The notes below the pieces were generated by a model that was given only the letters and a program-made list of their open reading frames with translations, made no database searches and was not told the origin of the DNA. Below, piece after piece: positions 3,069-38,137 of a DNA stretch of 38,465 bases. Source of the DNA: a virus; IMG/VR virus record IMGVR_UViG_3300009174_000001, positions 1-38,465 of that record; one strand, given 5' to 3'. Both the position numbers and the translations under genes were made by a program. Each line of letters opens with the position of its first letter. Within the stretch, counting starts at the first letter, position 1.

Positions 3069-4289
3069 TTATCCGGATCCTGCTTTCCGTTCCCCGACAA
3101 ACGCGACGCGTGCGCCCGCTCGCACCTCGCGCAGCGCCTCGGCCACCACGTCGTGATGATGTTTCTGGATCCACTCGCCGTGCAGCGCGGACGGGACGGC
3201 CACCTCGATGACGTCGCCGGCGTCGTCGAGCAACGACGAGTGCGCGAACCAAGTGTGGAACGTGTGCCGGTCCAACTTCTCCGCGAGCCGGTCGAGCACC
3301 TGGCCCCACACGTCGCCGGCGGCGGCCGCCTCTTGCGTGCGCAGGCTGACTTCGCGCGCGAGGTAGGTCGCTTTGTGCCGCAATGCGAACAGCCCGCGGT
3401 CGGGGCACCGTTCCGCGATCCACCAGCGGTGACTCCCGCGAATGCCATCCGTCGTGGTCGTCCAGAGCAGCACGGCCATCGCCTGGAGGAGGTCGAACGG
3501 ATACTGGTCGAGCAGCGCGCGTACGATCGGCCCGTCACGCGCGCGATCGACGAACGCGGCGGCGCCGCCGTTGTGTGTCGGGAACGTCGCGCGCCACCAG
3601 GTCAGGAACGCGTCGCCGTCGCGCGCGCGCGCGGCTTCTTCTACTTCTGTAGATCTTTCTACTACGATAGCGCGCGCGGATATTAAGTCGGCGTCGTTGT
3701 GCGCGCCAACGTCGGCAGAAGTTGCCGACGTTTCCTTGACGCTTTCGAAAAGGTCGGCAGAAGTTGCCGACGTTGATCGCTCTTTGATCGTACGCATCCA
3801 CCAACGTCGGCAGAAGTTGCCGACGTTTGCCCACCAACGTCGGCAATAGTTGCCGATGTCGTACGCCCTAACCTCGCCAACGTCGGCAGAAGTTGCCGAC
3901 GTTTCGTTGACGCTTTCGAAAAGGTCGGCAGAAGTTGCCGACGTTTCCTTGACGCTTGTCTTCGTCCGCACCGGCTTCGCGCGCCCGAGAAGCGGCAACG
4001 GCGCCGCGGTCAGCGGCCGCGCGCCCTCCACGAGCCGGAGCATTTCATACCGCGCCACTTTGCCGCGGCCGCCGTCATGCACTTTGATCTCGCCGTCCCG
4101 TTCCAGCACGTCCCGGTTGCTCCGCGCCGTCCGATCCACACACCGCGCGTAGTTCGCCAGGTCCTCGATCGTCAGCGGCGGTGTCGTCGTTTCCCCTTCG
4201 GGAATGAGATCCGCGATCGCCTTTAAGAGCGCCAGCGCGCCGCCCTTCGCGGTGCAGGTGTCGACGTAGCGCTTCGCCGCGTCGCTCAT
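3069..4289 (-). CDS. Replication initiation protein with DnaA-N-like C-terminal domain
   Basis: 406 residues. The N-terminal 85 residues look like a winged-helix DNA-binding domain (LTIEDLANYARCVDRTARSN). The middle (about 105-190) is encoded by the iteron repeats and shows repeated peptides in two frames: ETSATSAD and GNFCRRWW. Residues 225-330 form a helical domain with FLTWWRATFP. The C-terminus (about 330-395) matches DnaA domain I: WGQVLDRLAEKL, FHTWF, IEVAVPSALHGEWI. It should bind the iterons and recruit the host helicase, like lambda O. The ATG at 4289 has only a weak ribosome site. Confidence 0.75.
   Translation of the reverse strand: MSDAAKRYVDTCTAKGGALALLKAIADLIPEGETTTPPLTIEDLANYARCVDRTARSNRDVLERDGEIKVHDGGRGKVARYEMLRLVEGARPLTAAPLPLLGRAKPVRTKTSVKETSATSADLFESVNETSATSADVGEVRAYDIGNYCRRWWANVGNFCRRWWMRTIKERSTSATSADLFESVKETSATSADVGAHNDADLISARAIVVERSTEVEEAARARDGDAFLTWWRATFPTHNGGAAAFVDRARDGPIVRALLDQYPFDLLQAMAVLLWTTTTDGIRGSHRWWIAERCPDRGLFALRHKATYLAREVSLRTQEAAAAGDVWGQVLDRLAEKLDRHTFHTWFAHSSLLDDAGDVIEVAVPSALHGEWIQKHHHDVVAEALREVRAGARVAFVGERKAGSG
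3634..3690. other. A+T-richer stretch beside the iterons (possible DNA-unwinding element)
   Basis: This part of the initiator gene is clearly richer in A and T than the surrounding GC-rich DNA (TTCTACTTCTGTAGATC and later GATATTAAG) and lies directly next to the first iteron. Iteron origins usually melt at such a side region. The role is inferred from position and composition. Confidence 0.45.
3708..3944. repeat. Six palindromic iterons: probable replication origin inside the initiator gene
   Basis: Six copies of the 19-bp dyad GTCGGCA-GAAGT-TGCCGAC start at 3711, 3753, 3806, 3839, 3882 and 3924. The 3839 copy is a variant (AATAG core, one arm base changed). Start-to-start distances are 42, 53, 33, 43 and 42 bp, all near whole helical turns (4, 5, 3, 4, 4), so the sites lie on one face of the DNA. 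The 61-bp block 3711-3771 recurs at 3882-3942 with one mismatch. Distances of 53 and 43 change reading frame, so the DNA rather than the peptide is what is conserved. Lambda carries its origin within gene O in the same way. Confidence 0.85.
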
Positions 4290-5422: not shown

Positions 5423-5842
5423 TCATGCGTCGGCACCGTTCGTCGCCCGCCGCTGAAATTCTTCCCGCGTCAACCCAATCCACCACGACGTCGTCGGCGC
5501 CGGCGGCTTGGCGGCGTGCGAGTGCGCGATCACGGTCTGCGCATCCGGGATCCGCGGCGGTTGCCACTCCACGAGCGCCCACTGCCGATCCGTCAACCGC
5601 TTCCCGACGACCTTGACCACCCCGCGCGTCCGCAACGCTTGGAGCTCGCGATAGATCACAGTCTCGGGGATGTGGAGGGCTTCGCGGAGCTGCCACTTCT
5701 GGAGCGGGGCCGGTTGGAGCGCGAGGAGGATCGCGTTCTGGACGGCCACGTGATCGAGGACCACGAGCTGATCGGCGGGATCGCGGTACGTGTCGCCGCG
5801 GCGGACCGCGCCGGGGAGTCGCGGGGATCGGAGGGGCTTCAT
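5423..5842 (-). CDS. Winged-helix DNA-binding protein
   Basis: 139 residues. The centre (about 38-90) reads LQPAPLQKWQLREALHIPET, VIYRELQALRTRGVVKV and WALVEW, a typical winged HTH with the recognition helix at VIYREL. The C-terminal part holds TREEFQRRA and looks unstructured. Within the early leftward operon it may be a transcription regulator or a replication accessory factor. Ribosome site GGAGGGG lies just before the ATG at 5842. Confidence 0.6.
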   Translation of the reverse strand: MKPLRSPRLPGAVRRGDTYRDPADQLVVLDHVAVQNAILLALQPAPLQKWQLREALHIPETVIYRELQALRTRGVVKVVGKRLTDRQWALVEWQPPRIPDAQTVIAHSHAAKPPAPTTSWWIGLTREEFQRRATNGADA

Positions 5843-6428: not shown

Positions 6429-6692
6429 TCAGGCGCTCTTGGCGGCGATCGCGGCCTTCGCCATGCGGACCGGGATCCGGCGCGTGACGGGCACCCGCCA
6501 CTGGCCGGCGAGATAGCGATCGACCAGGTCCGCGCGAAAGCGCATACAACGGCCAACCCGCGGTTGGAGTTCTTCGAGGAACGGCAACTCACCGGCCTTC
6601 TTCAAGGTGAAGAACGTCCGGCGCGGCATGTTGAGCAGCTCGGGGCTGAGGAGCTGCTTGAGGGTGTAACAGCGCGGGGGGTGGCCGGTCAT
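6429..6692 (-). CDS. Small HTH (excisionase/AlpA-like) protein
   Basis: 87 residues. TLKQLLSPELLNMPRRTFF then KKAGELP, RVGRCMRFRADLVDRYLAG gives the helix-turn-helix plus wing order of excisionase and AlpA-type proteins. Second gene after the main early promoter, overlapping the Xre gene by four bases (ATGA). The position beside the immunity genes makes excisionase or early regulator the likeliest roles. The basic C-terminus would help DNA binding. Confidence 0.65.
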   Translation of the reverse strand: MTGHPPRCYTLKQLLSPELLNMPRRTFFTLKKAGELPFLEELQPRVGRCMRFRADLVDRYLAGQWRVPVTRRIPVRMAKAAIAAKSA

Positions 6693-6889
6693 GCGACCTT
6701 CAGGAACAACTGGCCGATCTTCCGCTTCAGGACGCGGGCCAGGGCTCTCTGTTCGTCCTCGCTCGCCTCTCGGTGCCCGTTGATGATGTGACTGAGCCGG
6801 GTGTGGTGGATGCCGGCGGCCGCGGCCACTTCGAACTGGGTCAGGCCGCTCTCGACGATCGCGATCTTTAGGGCCAGATTCTTGGGCAT
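6689..6889 (-). CDS. Xre/Cro-family HTH regulator
   Basis: 66 residues holding one Xre HTH: IAIVESGLTQFEVAAAAGIH with HHTRLSHIINGHR as recognition helix, followed by DEQRALARVLKRKIGQLF. It is first in the early leftward operon, 17 bases after the -10 box of a strong promoter, and divergent from the HTH gene at 6959. By position it is the Cro-like partner of the lysis-lysogeny switch. It has no peptidase or dimerisation domain. Confidence 0.8.
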   Translation of the reverse strand: MPKNLALKIAIVESGLTQFEVAAAAGIHHTRLSHIINGHREASEDEQRALARVLKRKIGQLFLKVA

Positions 6890-6906
6890 ATGCGTTGTAG
6901 GAGGGA

Positions 6907-6935
6907 AATATATATTGCTGTATAGTAACTGTCAA
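6907..6935 (-). promoter_or_regulatory. Strong sigma70-type early leftward promoter
   Basis: On the minus strand TTGACA (6930-6935) and TATATT (6907-6912) are separated by exactly 17 bases. This is a near-consensus promoter driving the Xre gene at 6889 and the early operon. The expected transcript start near 6900 leaves a leader of only about 10 bases. Confidence 0.8.
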
Positions 6936-6944
6936 CATTATGTT
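6915..6944 (+). promoter_or_regulatory. Candidate rightward promoter of the lysogeny module
   Basis: TTGCTG (6915-6920) and TATGTT (6939-6944) are separated by 18 bases and point towards the HTH gene at 6959. It overlaps the leftward promoter, so the two cannot be used together, as expected in a switch. Weaker than the leftward one. Confidence 0.45.
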
Positions 6945-6945
6945 G
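6933..6945. promoter_or_regulatory. Candidate operator palindrome in the switch region
   Basis: CAACAT-T-ATGTTG is a perfect 6-bp inverted repeat around one central base. It overlaps the -35 box of the leftward promoter by three bases and covers the -10 of the rightward one, an ideal place for a repressor dimer. Confidence 0.6.
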
Positions 6946-6958
6946 TACGAAGTGATTC

Positions 6959-7267
6959 ATGAGCGTAATTCAAGTTGAATTCCCGCCTGGCGACGTCGGT
7001 CCCTTGCTACCGTCGTTCTCGGTGGACACGAATTCTTCCTTACGGCAACGGGCGTTGCGGCTCGTCAAGCATGGGGTCAGCCAGAAAGTGTTGGCGGGCA
7101 AGATGGGGATGCAACCCGGCACGTTCAGCCGATGGCTGCGCGAGAAGGACGGGATCGGCCCCGCGTCCACCGTGGCGCTCGACGGGTTCAACGCGTACGT
7201 CCGGGAATTGGCGGACGCGCTCTCGGATGAACCCGAACAGCGCGCCCCGAAGCGATCGGTCGGCTAA
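6959..7267 (+). CDS. HTH regulator of the lysogeny module (probable repressor)
   Basis: 102 residues. RQRALRLVKHGVSQKVLAGK with MQPGTFSRWLREKDG forms a lambda-type HTH, followed by a short helical end (FNAYVRELADAL) that may dimerise. First gene of the rightward lysogeny module and divergent from the Xre gene, so it is the best candidate for the prophage repressor. It lacks a LexA/CI-type autocleavage domain, so induction would need another mechanism. Confidence 0.65.
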   Translation: MSVIQVEFPPGDVGPLLPSFSVDTNSSLRQRALRLVKHGVSQKVLAGKMGMQPGTFSRWLREKDGIGPASTVALDGFNAYVRELADALSDEPEQRAPKRSVG

Positions 7268-23414: not shown

Positions 23415-24329
23415 TCAGCCCGCCTTCTGGAATAACGTCCAGGTCTTCGGCATTTTCGTAGCTTTTGCCATATTGCAATGCGCGTGGGCGAGTTGGACGT
23501 TGTGGTAGGAATGCACGCCGCCTTTCGACAGCGGCACGATGTGATCGACGTGCCACTTCTGCCCGGCCGTGATCTGAAGTGAGCAAATCCCACACACGCC
23601 TCGGTCGCGTTCGTAGACGACAAGTGGATCGACCGCTTCAATGAACGCGCCGCGCTTCCGCGCCCGCCGAGTCTGCGCGCCGCGCTGACTCATCGCGCGG
23701 CGTTCCTTGGGATGGTCCTTGGCCCACCGTTTGGTCTTCGCCAACCGCTCCGCCCGCCGCGCCACGTAGGCCCGTCGCGCCCGTTCTCGGTCCCGGTGTC
23801 TATTCGCCGCGTGATACCGGCGCCGCCGTTCGCGATCACTCTCCTTGTTCGCAGCGTATCGCTGACGTCCACGTGTGCTCGTCAACTGGCGCTGACAGGT
23901 CGACGAACAACACGACGGCGCCGGCCCCATCTGGCCAGGGCGACGGAACGGCAGTGCCGCCTCACACACGACACAGAATCGCTGAATCGGATCGGCGACC
24001 GGAGGGCGCGCCTTCGCCGGCCGTCCACGGCCCTTGCGTGCCTTCGACAGATTGGCGCGATGTTCTACTGAACGGACGCGGCCCGTCAGCGCCGCTGAAA
24101 GCTTTGCGCGGGATTCTGGCGTCCAGACTCGACGGCGATTCGCATCCGCCAGCTTCACGCGTTGCTCAGCCGTCGGTGGCTTCCGTACGCGCACGCGCGG
24201 CGTATATGAGCACGACCGACACCGGCTGAGCCGACCGTCCTTGGAGCCGCGAGAGACGTAGAACTCTGTGACTGGCTTCGGCGTACCGCAACGTCGGCAC
24301 GTCTTCAACGTAGACTTCGGATCAGCCAT
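23415..24329 (-). CDS. HNH homing endonuclease with zinc and NUMOD-type repeats
   Basis: 304 residues from the ATG at 24329. The N-terminus has CRRCGTPKPVTEFYVSRG and CRSC (zinc). The middle has TPESRAKLSAALTGRVRSVE, NUMOD3-like DNA-contact repeats. Then CVVC and CQRQ clusters and a basic linker lead to the HNH core: YERDRGVCGICSLQITAGQ, HVDHIVPLSKGG, NVQLAHAHCNMAKAT. A free-standing mobile nuclease inserted between the tail tube and chaperone genes. It ends exactly where the chaperone GTG begins. Confidence 0.8.
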   Translation of the reverse strand: MADPKSTLKTCRRCGTPKPVTEFYVSRGSKDGRLSRCRSCSYTPRVRVRKPPTAEQRVKLADANRRRVWTPESRAKLSAALTGRVRSVEHRANLSKARKGRGRPAKARPPVADPIQRFCVVCEAALPFRRPGQMGPAPSCCSSTCQRQLTSTRGRQRYAANKESDRERRRRYHAANRHRDRERARRAYVARRAERLAKTKRWAKDHPKERRAMSQRGAQTRRARKRGAFIEAVDPLVVYERDRGVCGICSLQITAGQKWHVDHIVPLSKGGVHSYHNVQLAHAHCNMAKATKMPKTWTLFQKAG

Positions 24330-24363
24330 GCGGGCGCGACCTCCAATCGCGAGCGTGTGGTGA

Positions 24364-24398
24364 GGAGCCGGTGAGCGCTGCACGCGTCCACCGGCTCC
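24364..24398. terminator. Strong 10-bp stem-loop after the tail protein gene
   Basis: GGAGCCGGTG and CACCGGCTCC pair perfectly around a 15-base loop in the 101-bp gap between the tail protein stop and the HNH gene start. No T-run follows, so it may be an mRNA-stabilising or partial termination hairpin rather than a classic terminator. Confidence 0.45.
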
Positions 24399-24430
24399 GC
24401 TGATCGTACTCCGAAAGACGAGCAGACCCA

Positions 24431-24853
24431 TCAGCCCGACCACGCGCACGAGCCGCTCGGCTGCAGCTCCGCCTGGTAGGTGGCCAGGCCGATCTTCGGC
24501 TCGATCGATCCGCTTTCGAGGACGACTTCCGCCGTGAACGTCTTGCCGGCGCCCACGACGATCACGAGCGTCCGGGTGAAGCCGGGGACCGCGTCCGCGT
24601 CAGTCGGGATCATCGTCGCGAACGTGCCCGTGTCGGCCGTCGTGTCGACCAGGCCCGAGAGCGCGATCTTTTCGCCCTTGCGGATGCCCGTCACGAGCGT
24701 GCCGATCCAACTGTCGCCGTACGCGGTGTTGCCGACGGTCTCCTGACTGATCTTCAGGCCGCCGCACTGCAGCACGAAGCTCGTCACGATGCGCGCGACG
24801 CCGCCGGAATCATCGAGGGTGATCGTCACGCCTGACGAGGGAAGCTTGGCCAT
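24431..24853 (-). CDS. Tail tube-like protein
   Basis: 140 residues, beta-rich: VTITLDDSGGVARIVTSFVL, SWIGTLVTGIRKGEKIALSG, VIVVGAGKTFTAEVVLESGS. Length and strand order are typical of siphophage tail tube subunits. It follows a second, larger tail protein (24878-25846) that may also be a tube or tube-associated subunit. The operon position just before the chaperones is where the major tail protein normally lies. Confidence 0.65.
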   Translation of the reverse strand: MAKLPSSGVTITLDDSGGVARIVTSFVLQCGGLKISQETVGNTAYGDSWIGTLVTGIRKGEKIALSGLVDTTADTGTFATMIPTDADAVPGFTRTLVIVVGAGKTFTAEVVLESGSIEPKIGLATYQAELQPSGSCAWSG

Positions 24854-25859: not shown

Positions 25860-26609
25860 TCATGCCACACCAGCTCGTGTCTTCGTGAGCGTGGCGATCT
25901 CGTTGTCTGTGAAGTGAACGACCTTGAGGCCGTAGAACTGAAGCAGATACTCGTCTCGGCGTGCGCCGCAGCCCGGCGTTTCCTTCTCAGCCCTCTTGTG
26001 CCAGTACGCCCCATCGGCCTCGTAGGCGATGTGATGTTCCCGGTCGTAGAGATCCACGGTGAACCGGCCGAAGCGCACTTCAGGCTCAAGCGTCAAGCCG
26101 GTTGACGTGAGATGCGCGTGGAGGGCCTGCGCGAGCTTCGTGTAGCGCACGGAAGGATTCAAGAGGTGCGGACGTCGGCCCGCCGCGACGGACTCCCGAG
26201 ATCCACGACTCATCTTGGCGCGAGTTTCCGCCGAACGAACCATCCCGACGTGGGCGGCGGATCGCTTGGCGACGTGTTCCGGCGACTGCTTTTTCCCTTT
26301 AAGCGCCGCCGACATCGCATCGAGGTGCTTCTGTTGCGCCGCGGACGGGGCGCAGTTTTTCCCAATCCCCATACGACTGGCGGAAATTCGAGCCTTCGTC
26401 TCAGGAGAAAGGCGCCGACCCTTGAACGCCAGGGACAACTTCGCTTTTTGCTCGGCCGAGATCGGACGCCCCTTGCCGAGCCGTCCGGCTGAGATTTTGG
26501 CCCTGGCTTCAGGCGTGTGTGGCGGGAGTCGAAAGCTATGTTTACCGAGGTTCGCCGCCGAGATTTTCGCGCGGTGTTCTGGAGATAGCGGTACGCCTTT
26601 GGCGCTCAT
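25860..26609 (-). CDS. EDxHD-type homing endonuclease with NUMOD3 repeats
   Basis: 249 residues from the ATG at 26609 with GGGAG before it. The first 150 residues are five to six NUMOD3 repeats such as SPEHRAKISAANLG, SAEQKAKLSLAFKGRRLS and SPETKARISASRMG. The end is a Vsr-like nuclease: RFTVDLYDREHHIAYEADGA directly followed by YWHK, then RRDEYLLQFYGLKVVHFTDNE. The Glu, Asp and His cluster in YEADG-x-YWH matches the EDxHD family of homing nucleases. Free-standing mobile gene between coiled-coil and tail tube genes. Confidence 0.8.
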   Translation of the reverse strand: MSAKGVPLSPEHRAKISAANLGKHSFRLPPHTPEARAKISAGRLGKGRPISAEQKAKLSLAFKGRRLSPETKARISASRMGIGKNCAPSAAQQKHLDAMSAALKGKKQSPEHVAKRSAAHVGMVRSAETRAKMSRGSRESVAAGRRPHLLNPSVRYTKLAQALHAHLTSTGLTLEPEVRFGRFTVDLYDREHHIAYEADGAYWHKRAEKETPGCGARRDEYLLQFYGLKVVHFTDNEIATLTKTRAGVA

Positions 26610-26836
26610 CTGGAGTCTCCCGTCAAAGGCAGTGTAAGAGTATTCCACTCGTACCCGCAGCGCACACACACGTCATGACACACGCCGAAGCCGCCCGATC
26701 GCACGCGCGCCGTCTCGTCGCCCTCGGGACAGATCGCGAAACAGCCGGGGCACGTCTGATCGCTCGCCTGCCGCGCCGGCTTGCCGGACGGATCCAGGAT
26801 CGGCGGCGCCGCGGGGACGGGGCGCGCGTCGGTCAT
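26606..26836 (-). CDS. Small zinc-binding protein
   Basis: 76 residues starting MTDARPVPAAPPILDPSGKP, then CPGCFAICP and a CHDVCVRCGYEWNTL box. The CxxC...CxxC arrangement is a zinc ribbon. It overlaps both neighbours by four bases (ATGA), tying it to the late operon in spite of the mobile gene that follows. Function unknown. Confidence 0.6.
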   Translation of the reverse strand: MTDARPVPAAPPILDPSGKPARQASDQTCPGCFAICPEGDETARVRSGGFGVCHDVCVRCGYEWNTLTLPLTGDSR

Positions 26837-35859: not shown

Positions 35860-36048
35860 TCAGCGCGGCGGTTTCGGGAGATGGTCCCGCAGGAGGTCGC
35901 GAATCATGGCCGGCACCGACGCGACCCGCGCCGCGCCGGCGGCGTGATAGGCGCGATCGTAGAGCGTGTCGGACATCGACACGTGGACGTGCGCGGAGAG
36001 CTTCTGCCCCTTCGGCAACGTCGGGCGCCCGCGGGGTTTCTGGGCCAT
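35860..36048 (-). CDS. Small ribbon-helix-helix-like protein
   Basis: 62 residues. A basic start (MAQKPRGRPTLPKGQKLSAH), a strand VHVSMSDTLYDRAYHAAGA, then ARVASVPAMIRDLLRDHLPK. The strand-helix-helix order fits RHH DNA-binding proteins such as Arc and CopG. Overlaps the large terminase stop by one base (TGATG). Might regulate late transcription or bind terminase. Function is inferred only from fold. Confidence 0.65.
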   Translation of the reverse strand: MAQKPRGRPTLPKGQKLSAHVHVSMSDTLYDRAYHAAGAARVASVPAMIRDLLRDHLPKPPR

Positions 36049-37592
36049 CAGAGCACCAGGAGGCCGCGCGTTTCGTAGACCGACACCGACTCGCCGGCGC
36101 CGTGCCGGTCCATCCGGTCCACGGCATTCACGAGGGCCGAGGCGCCGTCGATGCGTTCGGTGGAGACCGCCTTCGACAGCTTGAGGTTGCCCGTCGCATC
36201 CTGCTCCGCCACCGCGTTGCCGATGCACCAGCGGAGGATCGGGTGCCCGTCGTGGCGGAGGCGGCGGGTGAGAATCGCCACCTCGAGGGATTTGGTCGGC
36301 GCCGAGAGTGAGCGGAAGCCCTGCCGGATCGGGACGCAGACGAACCCGTCCTGCTCCTGGAGCCGGGTCACGAGGTCGGTCGCGTTCCAGGGATCGAACG
36401 CCACCTCGCGAATCTGGAACTCGAGCGCCCAGGCGTTCAGGTGCGCGCGCACGACTTCGTAGTCGACGCGGTTGCCGGGCGTCGCGATCAGAAACCCGTC
36501 CCTCACCCACTGGTCATAGGGGACGCGGTCCCGCGTCACGCGCTCGAGGATGTTGTCCGTCGGGCAAAAGAACGCCGCCCGCACGTCGAAGCCGCCCCCG
36601 TCGTCGTCTGGAAACACGCCCACGAGCGCGGTCAGATCCTTCGTGGAGGAGAGGTCCAGCCCGACATAGCAACGTCGACCCGTCAGCGCCGCGGCGGCCG
36701 GCGGCAGGAGACAGGCGTCCCAGCTTGGCAACGACACCCAGCGCTCGGCGCTTTCGGTCCACTGGTTCCCGTACAGTCTGCGCCAGGCCATCTCTTGCGC
36801 GGGGATCTGCTGGGCGCGTTGGTTCGAGGTCCGCATTTCTTCGAGGCTGCGAAAGTCACCGAGCGCCGGGTTGGCTTTCTTCCACTCGCGCTCGTCGGTC
36901 CAGTCCGCGTCCGCGGGCATCTCGTAAATGATGGGGAGGAACGTCGGATCGAGCGACGGCGTCTCGAGCACGCGCTTCGCATGGCTGTAGAGTTCGAAGA
37001 GGATCGAGTGCTTGTCGTAGCCGGCGGTCGAGATCGCGATCATCAGCGGTTGCGCGCGGGCGCCCTGGCTTGTGGCGAGCACGTCCCACAGATCGCGCGT
37101 CGGCGCGCAGTGCAGCTCGTCATAGATCACGACGCTCGCGTTGAACGAATGCGCCGTATACGCCTCGGCCGAAATCACGCGACAGAAACTGCCACTCGCG
37201 CGATGCACGATCCGCAGCTGCGACCGGAGGATCTCGACCTGGGCATCCAGTTCGGGATCGTTCTCGATCATCGCGACCATCGCCTGATAGACCTTCGAGG
37301 CTTGCTCTTTGTCCGCGGCCGCCAAATAGATTTCGCCGCCGATTTCCGCCGGCTGGTCGAACAGCAAGCAGTAGATCGCGATGGCCGCGGCGAGCTCCGT
37401 TTTTCCGTTCTTCCGAGGCAAGAGGAGGAGACATTGGCGGTAGATCCGTAGGTCTGTCGCCGGGTTCGTGCTGAAGAGTTTTCGGATGATGCGCGCCTGC
37501 CAGGGCCGCAGATTGAACGGCTGGCGCGCGAACGGGCCGGACGTATGCGTCAGGTTGTTAATCGCGGCGACCGCGCGCGCCCCGCCATTCAT
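36048..37592 (-). CDS. terL: Large terminase subunit
   Basis: 514 residues from the ATG at 37592. PWQARIIRKLFSTNPATD, Walker A in LLPRKNGKTELAAAIAIY, Walker B in VVIYDELHC, and ISTAGYDKHSILFELY. The nuclease domain begins at YVGLDLSSTKDLTALVGVFP with the first Asp and includes AFDPWNATDLVTRLQEQ. Terminase_1 type (pfam03354-like). It pumps and cuts the DNA during head filling. The start overlaps the small terminase stop by four bases (ATGA). Confidence 0.95.
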   Translation of the reverse strand: MNGGARAVAAINNLTHTSGPFARQPFNLRPWQARIIRKLFSTNPATDLRIYRQCLLLLPRKNGKTELAAAIAIYCLLFDQPAEIGGEIYLAAADKEQASKVYQAMVAMIENDPELDAQVEILRSQLRIVHRASGSFCRVISAEAYTAHSFNASVVIYDELHCAPTRDLWDVLATSQGARAQPLMIAISTAGYDKHSILFELYSHAKRVLETPSLDPTFLPIIYEMPADADWTDEREWKKANPALGDFRSLEEMRTSNQRAQQIPAQEMAWRRLYGNQWTESAERWVSLPSWDACLLPPAAAALTGRRCYVGLDLSSTKDLTALVGVFPDDDGGGFDVRAAFFCPTDNILERVTRDRVPYDQWVRDGFLIATPGNRVDYEVVRAHLNAWALEFQIREVAFDPWNATDLVTRLQEQDGFVCVPIRQGFRSLSAPTKSLEVAILTRRLRHDGHPILRWCIGNAVAEQDATGNLKLSKAVSTERIDGASALVNAVDRMDRHGAGESVSVYETRGLLVL

Positions 37593-38137
37593 TTCAGGAT
37601 CGCCCACTTCGACGTGACGACCGCCGCGCCTTTCGCCGGCGCCGCGGCCATCGGCTTGCCGAGCGGGGCGAGCCCGAAGTCCTTCATCCACGTGGCGACC
37701 CGGTGCATGAGCCCGCGGTGGTTCGCCCCGTCCGCCTCGCTCGGCGACGCCGACAACGCGCGCTCGTGCACGACGGCCCGACACAGCATCGCGAACGCGC
37801 CGGCGGTCCCCGGCGTCAAGGTCTGCGCCTCCGACGCGTGCGGGGCGAGCTCGTGCCAGACCGCCAACGCGAAGGCGCGGGCCGTGAGCGCGTCGACCTT
37901 CGCCTGTAACTCGGCGATCTGCGGGTTGGGCTCGCCGGGCCCGGCGCCGCGCTCGAGAAACGCTAGATCCGCCGTGAGCGTCGCCAGTTGCCCGGGGGTC
38001 TCGGCCCACTCGGCCGGTGGGTCGACCCGCGCCGGGGCGACGACGACGCGCGCGCCATGCGGCACCACGAGGCCCATCGCCGCCTTCGGCTTTTCGCCGG
38101 ATCCAATGCGCCGCCCGCCACTCCCTCGACCACCCAT
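37589..38137 (-). CDS. terS: Small terminase subunit, P27-like
   Basis: 182 residues. MGGRGSGGRRIGSGEKPKAA followed by a DNA-binding and helical part (LATLTADLAFLERGAGPGEP, IAELQAKVDALTARAFALAV, HRVATWMKDFGLAPLGKPMA). The glycine- and arginine-rich start and the final helices match P27-family small terminases of HK97-like phages. Recognises the packaging site and brings in TerL. Between it and the HNH gene lie 127 bp that may hold the cos/pac site. Confidence 0.8.
   Translation of the reverse strand: MGGRGSGGRRIGSGEKPKAAMGLVVPHGARVVVAPARVDPPAEWAETPGQLATLTADLAFLERGAGPGEPNPQIAELQAKVDALTARAFALAVWHELAPHASEAQTLTPGTAGAFAMLCRAVVHERALSASPSEADGANHRGLMHRVATWMKDFGLAPLGKPMAAAPAKGAAVVTSKWAILK

Follow-up and report, generated by a model that had tools for sequence, protein, structure and literature searches.

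A probable lambda-type replication origin embedded in the gene of a phage initiator with a DnaA domain I-like C-terminus

Introduction

Several replicons are known to carry their origin inside the gene of their own initiator. In phage lambda, the iterons are 19-bp inverted repeats within the O gene and are bound by O dimers (PMC5043065), and lambdoid phage origins with six iterons have been described and footprinted (PMC7466680). Origins inside rep genes have been reported for pLS32 (RepN), pAD1, pSK1, pSK41 and the repABC plasmid p42d (PMC3155836), and oriL of phage SPP1 lies inside gene 38 (PMC6316719); in these plasmid and SPP1 cases, iterons within the initiator gene serve as the origin (PMC3155836, PMC4490491, PMC6316719). 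In those reports the repeats are called direct repeats or iterons rather than dyads. The Rep families of pLS32 RepN, pAD1 and pSK1/pSK41 differ from the protein analysed here, and SPP1 pairs gp38 with a separate loader, gp39. This report describes a phage gene in which a dyad array of the lambda kind is combined with a different type of initiator protein.

Results

The phage and its initiator gene

The stretch of DNA analysed here (the window) is a linear IMG/VR virus record, IMGVR_UViG_3300009174_000001, of 38,465 bp, and may be incomplete. Because it codes for a terminase large subunit, a portal, a major head protein and an integrase, the phage is tailed and probably temperate; the integrase also makes an integrated prophage probable. 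At 6904-6964, between the Cro/C1-type HTH gene at 6689-6889 and the integrase side, the contig has its weakest duplex, probably a lysogeny control region. Two ORFs within the tail gene region (23415-24449 and 25860-26669), which are Endonuclease VII/HNH-like and homing-endonuclease-like and show atypical codon use, are candidate mobile insertions. The terminase large subunit gene (window 36048-38009) is unbroken, as in L007 and L008, whereas in seven terminase relatives (L009, L010, L011, L012, L013, L014 and L015) the match is split with a frame change at nearly the same place, around residues 433-442, possibly a frameshift, a split gene or an intron scar.

The initiator gene, P0001, has the following features:

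3069-4289, minus strand: initiator gene P0001, 406 aa; coding-like codon use (score 105.8) and a PF11638 match
4014-4289, minus strand: predicted N-terminal winged-helix DNA-binding region (aa 1-92); by-eye pattern and low-confidence model
3330-3647, minus strand: middle region (about aa 215-320) of no known family; no match in Pfam, PHROGs or NCBIfam
3129-3314, minus strand: DnaA domain I-like domain (aa 326-387); PF11638 DnaA_N, E 2.3e-10

DnaA_N is the sole Pfam match of the protein, and PHROGs returned none. The same residues also match domain I of Bacillus subtilis DnaA (4tps, E 2.9e-6). In the comparison with chromosomal DnaA, domain I alone matches; the AAA+ and DnaA-box-binding domains were not found, and for the DnaA equivalog TIGR00362 the score, 23 bits, is below the cut-off of 344. 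For the N-terminus, a comparison with the HTH_36-type winged helix gave no Pfam match and an hhalign probability of 0.2%. AlphaFold models built with no alignment (pLDDT 33.6 and 46.7) were too poor for fold searches. The N-terminal model, of low confidence (pLDDT 46.7), runs helix-helix-helix-strand-strand, a topology compatible with a winged helix. Residues 1-92 resemble a winged helix by eye and may bind DNA.

Set against E. coli DnaA, P0001 presumably retains Trp6, Trp25 and Trp50 but has Thr and Leu in place of Glu21 and Phe46, respectively. E. coli DnaA domain I contacts DnaB via Glu21 and Phe46, and no helicase contact is reported for B. subtilis DnaA domain I (PMC5448010). Domains of DnaB, DnaC/IstB and lambda P (PF06992) were not detected in this possibly incomplete contig. 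As no helicase or loader gene was found, the DnaA-like domain may recruit host DnaB directly.

A dyad array within the coding sequence

The array and the DNA beside it comprise the following elements, listed without strand:

3708-3732: dyad 1, AACGTCGGCAGAAGTTGCCGACGTT; frame 0 (SATSAD)
3750-3774: dyad 2, one outer arm base changed (AAGG); frame 0
3803-3827: dyad 3, 25-mer identical to dyad 1; frame 1 (VGNFCR)
3836-3860: dyad 4, spacer ATAGT with unaltered 6-bp arms; frame 1 (IGNYCR)
3879-3903: dyad 5, 25-mer identical to dyad 1; frame 0
3921-3945: dyad 6, like dyad 2; frame 0
3704-3774: first copy of a 71-bp block with dyads 1 and 2; 99% identity to 3875-3945
3875-3945: second copy of the 71-bp block with dyads 5 and 6, lying 171 bp (57 codons) from the first
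3635-3664: easily melted stretch gene-3' of the iterons, a candidate unwinding element; 67% A+T

A preliminary description of this DNA had reported six near-identical dyads inside the initiator coding sequence, and all six were located as described, as copies of TCGGCA-NNNNN-TGCCGA at 3708-3945 inside the 406-aa gene (3069-4289, minus strand). The units are indeed dyadic, but the 19 bp assigned to them needs revision: each has a 17-bp core of two 6-bp arms and a 5-bp spacer (cores beginning at 3712, 3754, 3807, 3840, 3883 and 3925), which lengthens to as much as 25 bp where the arms reach 10 bp, as in three of the six. The 6-bp arms are identical throughout (12 of 12), substitutions being confined to the spacer, the outer arm bases and the flanks. 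The core is absent from the rest of the 38,465-bp contig; counted on both strands, 12 matches were observed against 0.99 expected, a number never attained in shuffles. A scan for clusters of at least three dyads across 203 phage and prophage loci (2.7 Mb) returned this array and a three-copy cluster in a Brevundimonas prophage (L040) only, with no second six-copy cluster.

The dyads follow one another at 42, 53, 33, 43 and 42 bp, exactly the distances first reported, and two of these (53 and 43) are indeed not multiples of three. The same DNA is read in two frames, as SATSAD in copies 1, 2, 5 and 6 and as VGNFCR or IGNYCR in copies 3 and 4. That the arms are invariant while the spacer and flanks vary and the frame changes counts in favor of an origin. 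The duplicated block was also real, though larger than the 61 bp first given (71 bp). Given the 99% identity between 3704-3774 and 3875-3945, duplication produced part of the array. Copies 1, 2, 5 and 6 form a 42-bp sub-type and copies 3 and 4 a 33-bp sub-type, and the two have little in common beyond the dyad. The proposal that all distances lie near whole turns of B-DNA holds in a weaker form. Phasing is moderate, with 33 bp being 1.5 bp and 43 bp being 1 bp off whole turns, and the phase coherence against random spacings (p ~0.002 to 0.014) depends on how duplicates are counted.

The adjoining stretch at 3635-3664 ranks as the second-weakest 30-bp duplex in the whole contig, which bears out the A+T-richer DNA noted beside the units. 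The cumulative GC skew of the contig has no minimum at 3.7-3.9 kb, a feature that had been put forward as possible support, and DnaA boxes show no excess and are absent near the array.

Comparison with phage lambda

In the lambda O gene and ori-lambda (NC_001416), as in P0001, the iterons lie within the gene, starting at codon 117. The annotated lambda iterons are 20, 24 and 23 bp apart and read in three frames, and the 6-5-6 symmetry of the P0001 dyads is seen in the first of them. The dyadic units had been presented as a difference from lambda and the mixed reading frames as distinctive, but lambda iterons are dyads too (PMC5043065) and are likewise frame-mixed, so both features were already known. 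The parallel extends to the arrangement: A+T-rich, easily melted DNA lies on the gene-3' side of the lambda iterons, as at 3635-3664, and the two genes have in common the order of N-terminal region, iteron-coded linker, easily melted stretch and C-terminal region.

Lambda has four iterons 20-24 bp apart, whereas the P0001 gene has six dyads 33-53 bp apart. Furthermore, lambda O matches Phage_rep_O (PF04492, 5.7e-36) and P0001 does not; by profile, P0001 is not a member of the lambda O family. Lambda O works with P, whereas P0001 has a DnaA_N-like C-terminus and the contig gave no match to P. An origin within a gene, dyads and mixed frames were thus known from lambda, and fusions of an HTH domain with DnaA_N from Bacillales plasmids and the phage Jenst; what differs from lambda is the protein, with its DnaA domain I-like C-terminus and no lambda O profile match.

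Relatives and parallel cases

Searches for relatives of P0001 by tblastn and pattern scans (viral contigs, genome contigs, phages and plasmids) returned weak DnaA_N matches only. DnaA_N alignment scans of viral contigs gave Jenst as the one match and no P0001 relative, and a scan of viral contigs for the paired-dyad DNA pattern returned nothing. Among 61 viral records with a related TerL, many of them fragments, none matches P0001 or holds a DnaA_N domain.

The initiator of Brevibacillus phage Jenst / SecTim467 (NC_028805) resembles P0001 in having a repeat-coded linker and a C-terminal DnaA_N. It has an HTH_36 N-terminus, and its linker repeats, TCAAAATCTGAC, are read in more than one frame and are less regular than the P0001 dyads. 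Jenst is a large 126-kb phage, and no sequence similarity between the whole proteins was detectable. Bacillales plasmid Reps (e.g. pBS72 and pTHECO01) likewise have an N-terminal HTH followed by a C-terminal DnaA_N (9 of 9 checked); these Firmicutes plasmids have no comparable in-gene array, and their HTH_36 was not detected in P0001. P0001 has the C-terminal DnaA_N of this Rep group (PF11638), but as its N-terminal domain is unconfirmed, full membership is unproven. Similarly, a Rubrobacter tropicus plasmid Rep (NZ_CP045120) has DnaA_N fused to the C-terminus of a replication initiator but, unlike P0001, an RPA/Rep3-type N-terminus and repeats upstream of the gene. On a Rubrobacter plasmid (L019:1290-1720), AATACCGACC repeats about 22 bp apart, probable iterons, lie upstream of a Rep gene ending in DnaA_N.

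Frame-mixed linker repeats were found in HTH_36-type initiators of prophages fetched through their terminase (L040, L041, L057, L084 and L086), and also in L063 and L103, whose ORFs were not used as seeds of the winged-helix profile. The iterons of these seven prophage initiators begin at codons 99-142, and the L040 and L041 initiators match PHROGs "replication initiation" families. Among 600 control ORFs, loose three-copy clusters occurred in 16 and four-copy clusters in none. The winged-helix profile was built from six seeds, five picked for having repeats and the sixth being Jenst, so independent support is limited to L063 and L103 among ten non-seed matches, the other eight having no such cluster. 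Frame-mixed iterons in the linkers of winged-helix initiators are thus recurrent, not universal.

In L057 (6995-7130), L084 and L086, AACCNGTAA-type repeats coding for NPVREPV lie in A+T-richer DNA gene-3' of the iterons and are possibly an unwinding element. Frame-mixed clusters in the short or doubtful frames of L025, L068, L075 and L149 were discounted. So was one in L200, where three nearly exact 44-45-bp tandem repeats (L200:2837-2960) lie in the gene of a D12-class DNA adenine methylase (PF02086), with one spacing that is not a multiple of three.

Discussion

The DnaA domain I-like C-terminus, the dyad array, the adjoining weak duplex, the lambda-like order and the prophage parallels together make a phage replication origin of the lambda type, embedded in its own initiator gene, a probable identity for the array. 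That this functional-looking array works like ori-lambda is the best-supported reading. The interpretation originally proposed, an iteron origin in this gene, is thus supported in part, the differences from lambda claimed for it having failed. Several observations count against it: the N-terminal fold lacks statistical support, neither Pfam nor hhalign being significant; the spacings are wider than in lambda; the GC-skew minimum and nearby DnaA boxes are missing; and no P0001 relative was found, while plasmid Reps of the same domain order have no comparable array.

Other roles for the dyads were weighed. Dimeric regulators typically use dyads and HTH proteins are coded nearby (5423-5842, 6689-6889), so the dyads could be operators through which the initiator or a phage repressor regulates transcription through the gene or the prophage state, with the origin elsewhere. 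The six copies, however, lie deep in a coding region, with none at a promoter or elsewhere in the contig, the gene has a DnaA-like domain, and the parallel cases are replication initiators; we regard operators as unlikely. It is very unlikely that the array reflects recent, functionless tandem duplications or selection on the encoded peptide. The 71-bp repeat at 99% identity and the 42-bp and 33-bp sub-units, all of in-frame sizes, would fit such a history, but the sub-types have the dyad and not the flanks in common, the same 17-mer is retained in two frames that give unrelated peptides, and the arms are complementary in six of six copies.

A parS-like site for partition or incompatibility, or iterons serving copy control only, would be in keeping with repeat arrays beside rep genes that can be parS, such as the parS repeats of Miko and Rachaly, which adjoin repA (PMC7157519). 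No ParA or ParB family was found among the scanned window proteins, however, and with an integrase present and the prophage probably integrated, this role is highly improbable. Least credible, and extremely improbable, is a role as RNA hairpins by which the initiator mRNA would have its translation or decay controlled. Each 25-mer can fold into a 10-bp stem (-15.6 kcal/mol), but the dyad is just as symmetric as DNA, strong in-frame hairpins would hinder translation, and the parallel in lambda is a DNA site.

On the origin reading, the N-terminal region of the initiator would bind each 6-5-6 dyad as dimers, and the roughly phased complexes would bend or wrap the DNA and melt the weak duplex at 3635-3664. 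Displayed in many copies, the C-terminal DnaA domain I-like domain would then bring in the host replicative helicase or its loader, a step that would replace the lambda O-P step. Helicase recruitment by this domain is plausible but unproven: the presumed Thr and Leu at the positions of Glu21 and Phe46, and the lack of reported recruitment by B. subtilis domain I, count against it. The iteron-coded linker would tolerate different peptides, so the dyads could be kept as DNA in any reading frame. A more far-reaching and doubtful proposal is a one-gene replicon, in which about 1.2 kb would hold origin, initiator and a DnaA-like helicase-docking domain with no phage loader needed, as one case of a rule by which the origin of phages with winged-helix initiators would often lie within the DNA coding for the initiator's linker, whatever the frame.

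If right, the origin reading would place a DnaA domain I module in a lambda-style origin-in-gene system, pointing to a direct path between phage initiator and host helicase. The survey also yields a simple sequence test for phage origins in uncharacterised genomes, namely frame-mixed repeats in an initiator gene's linker.
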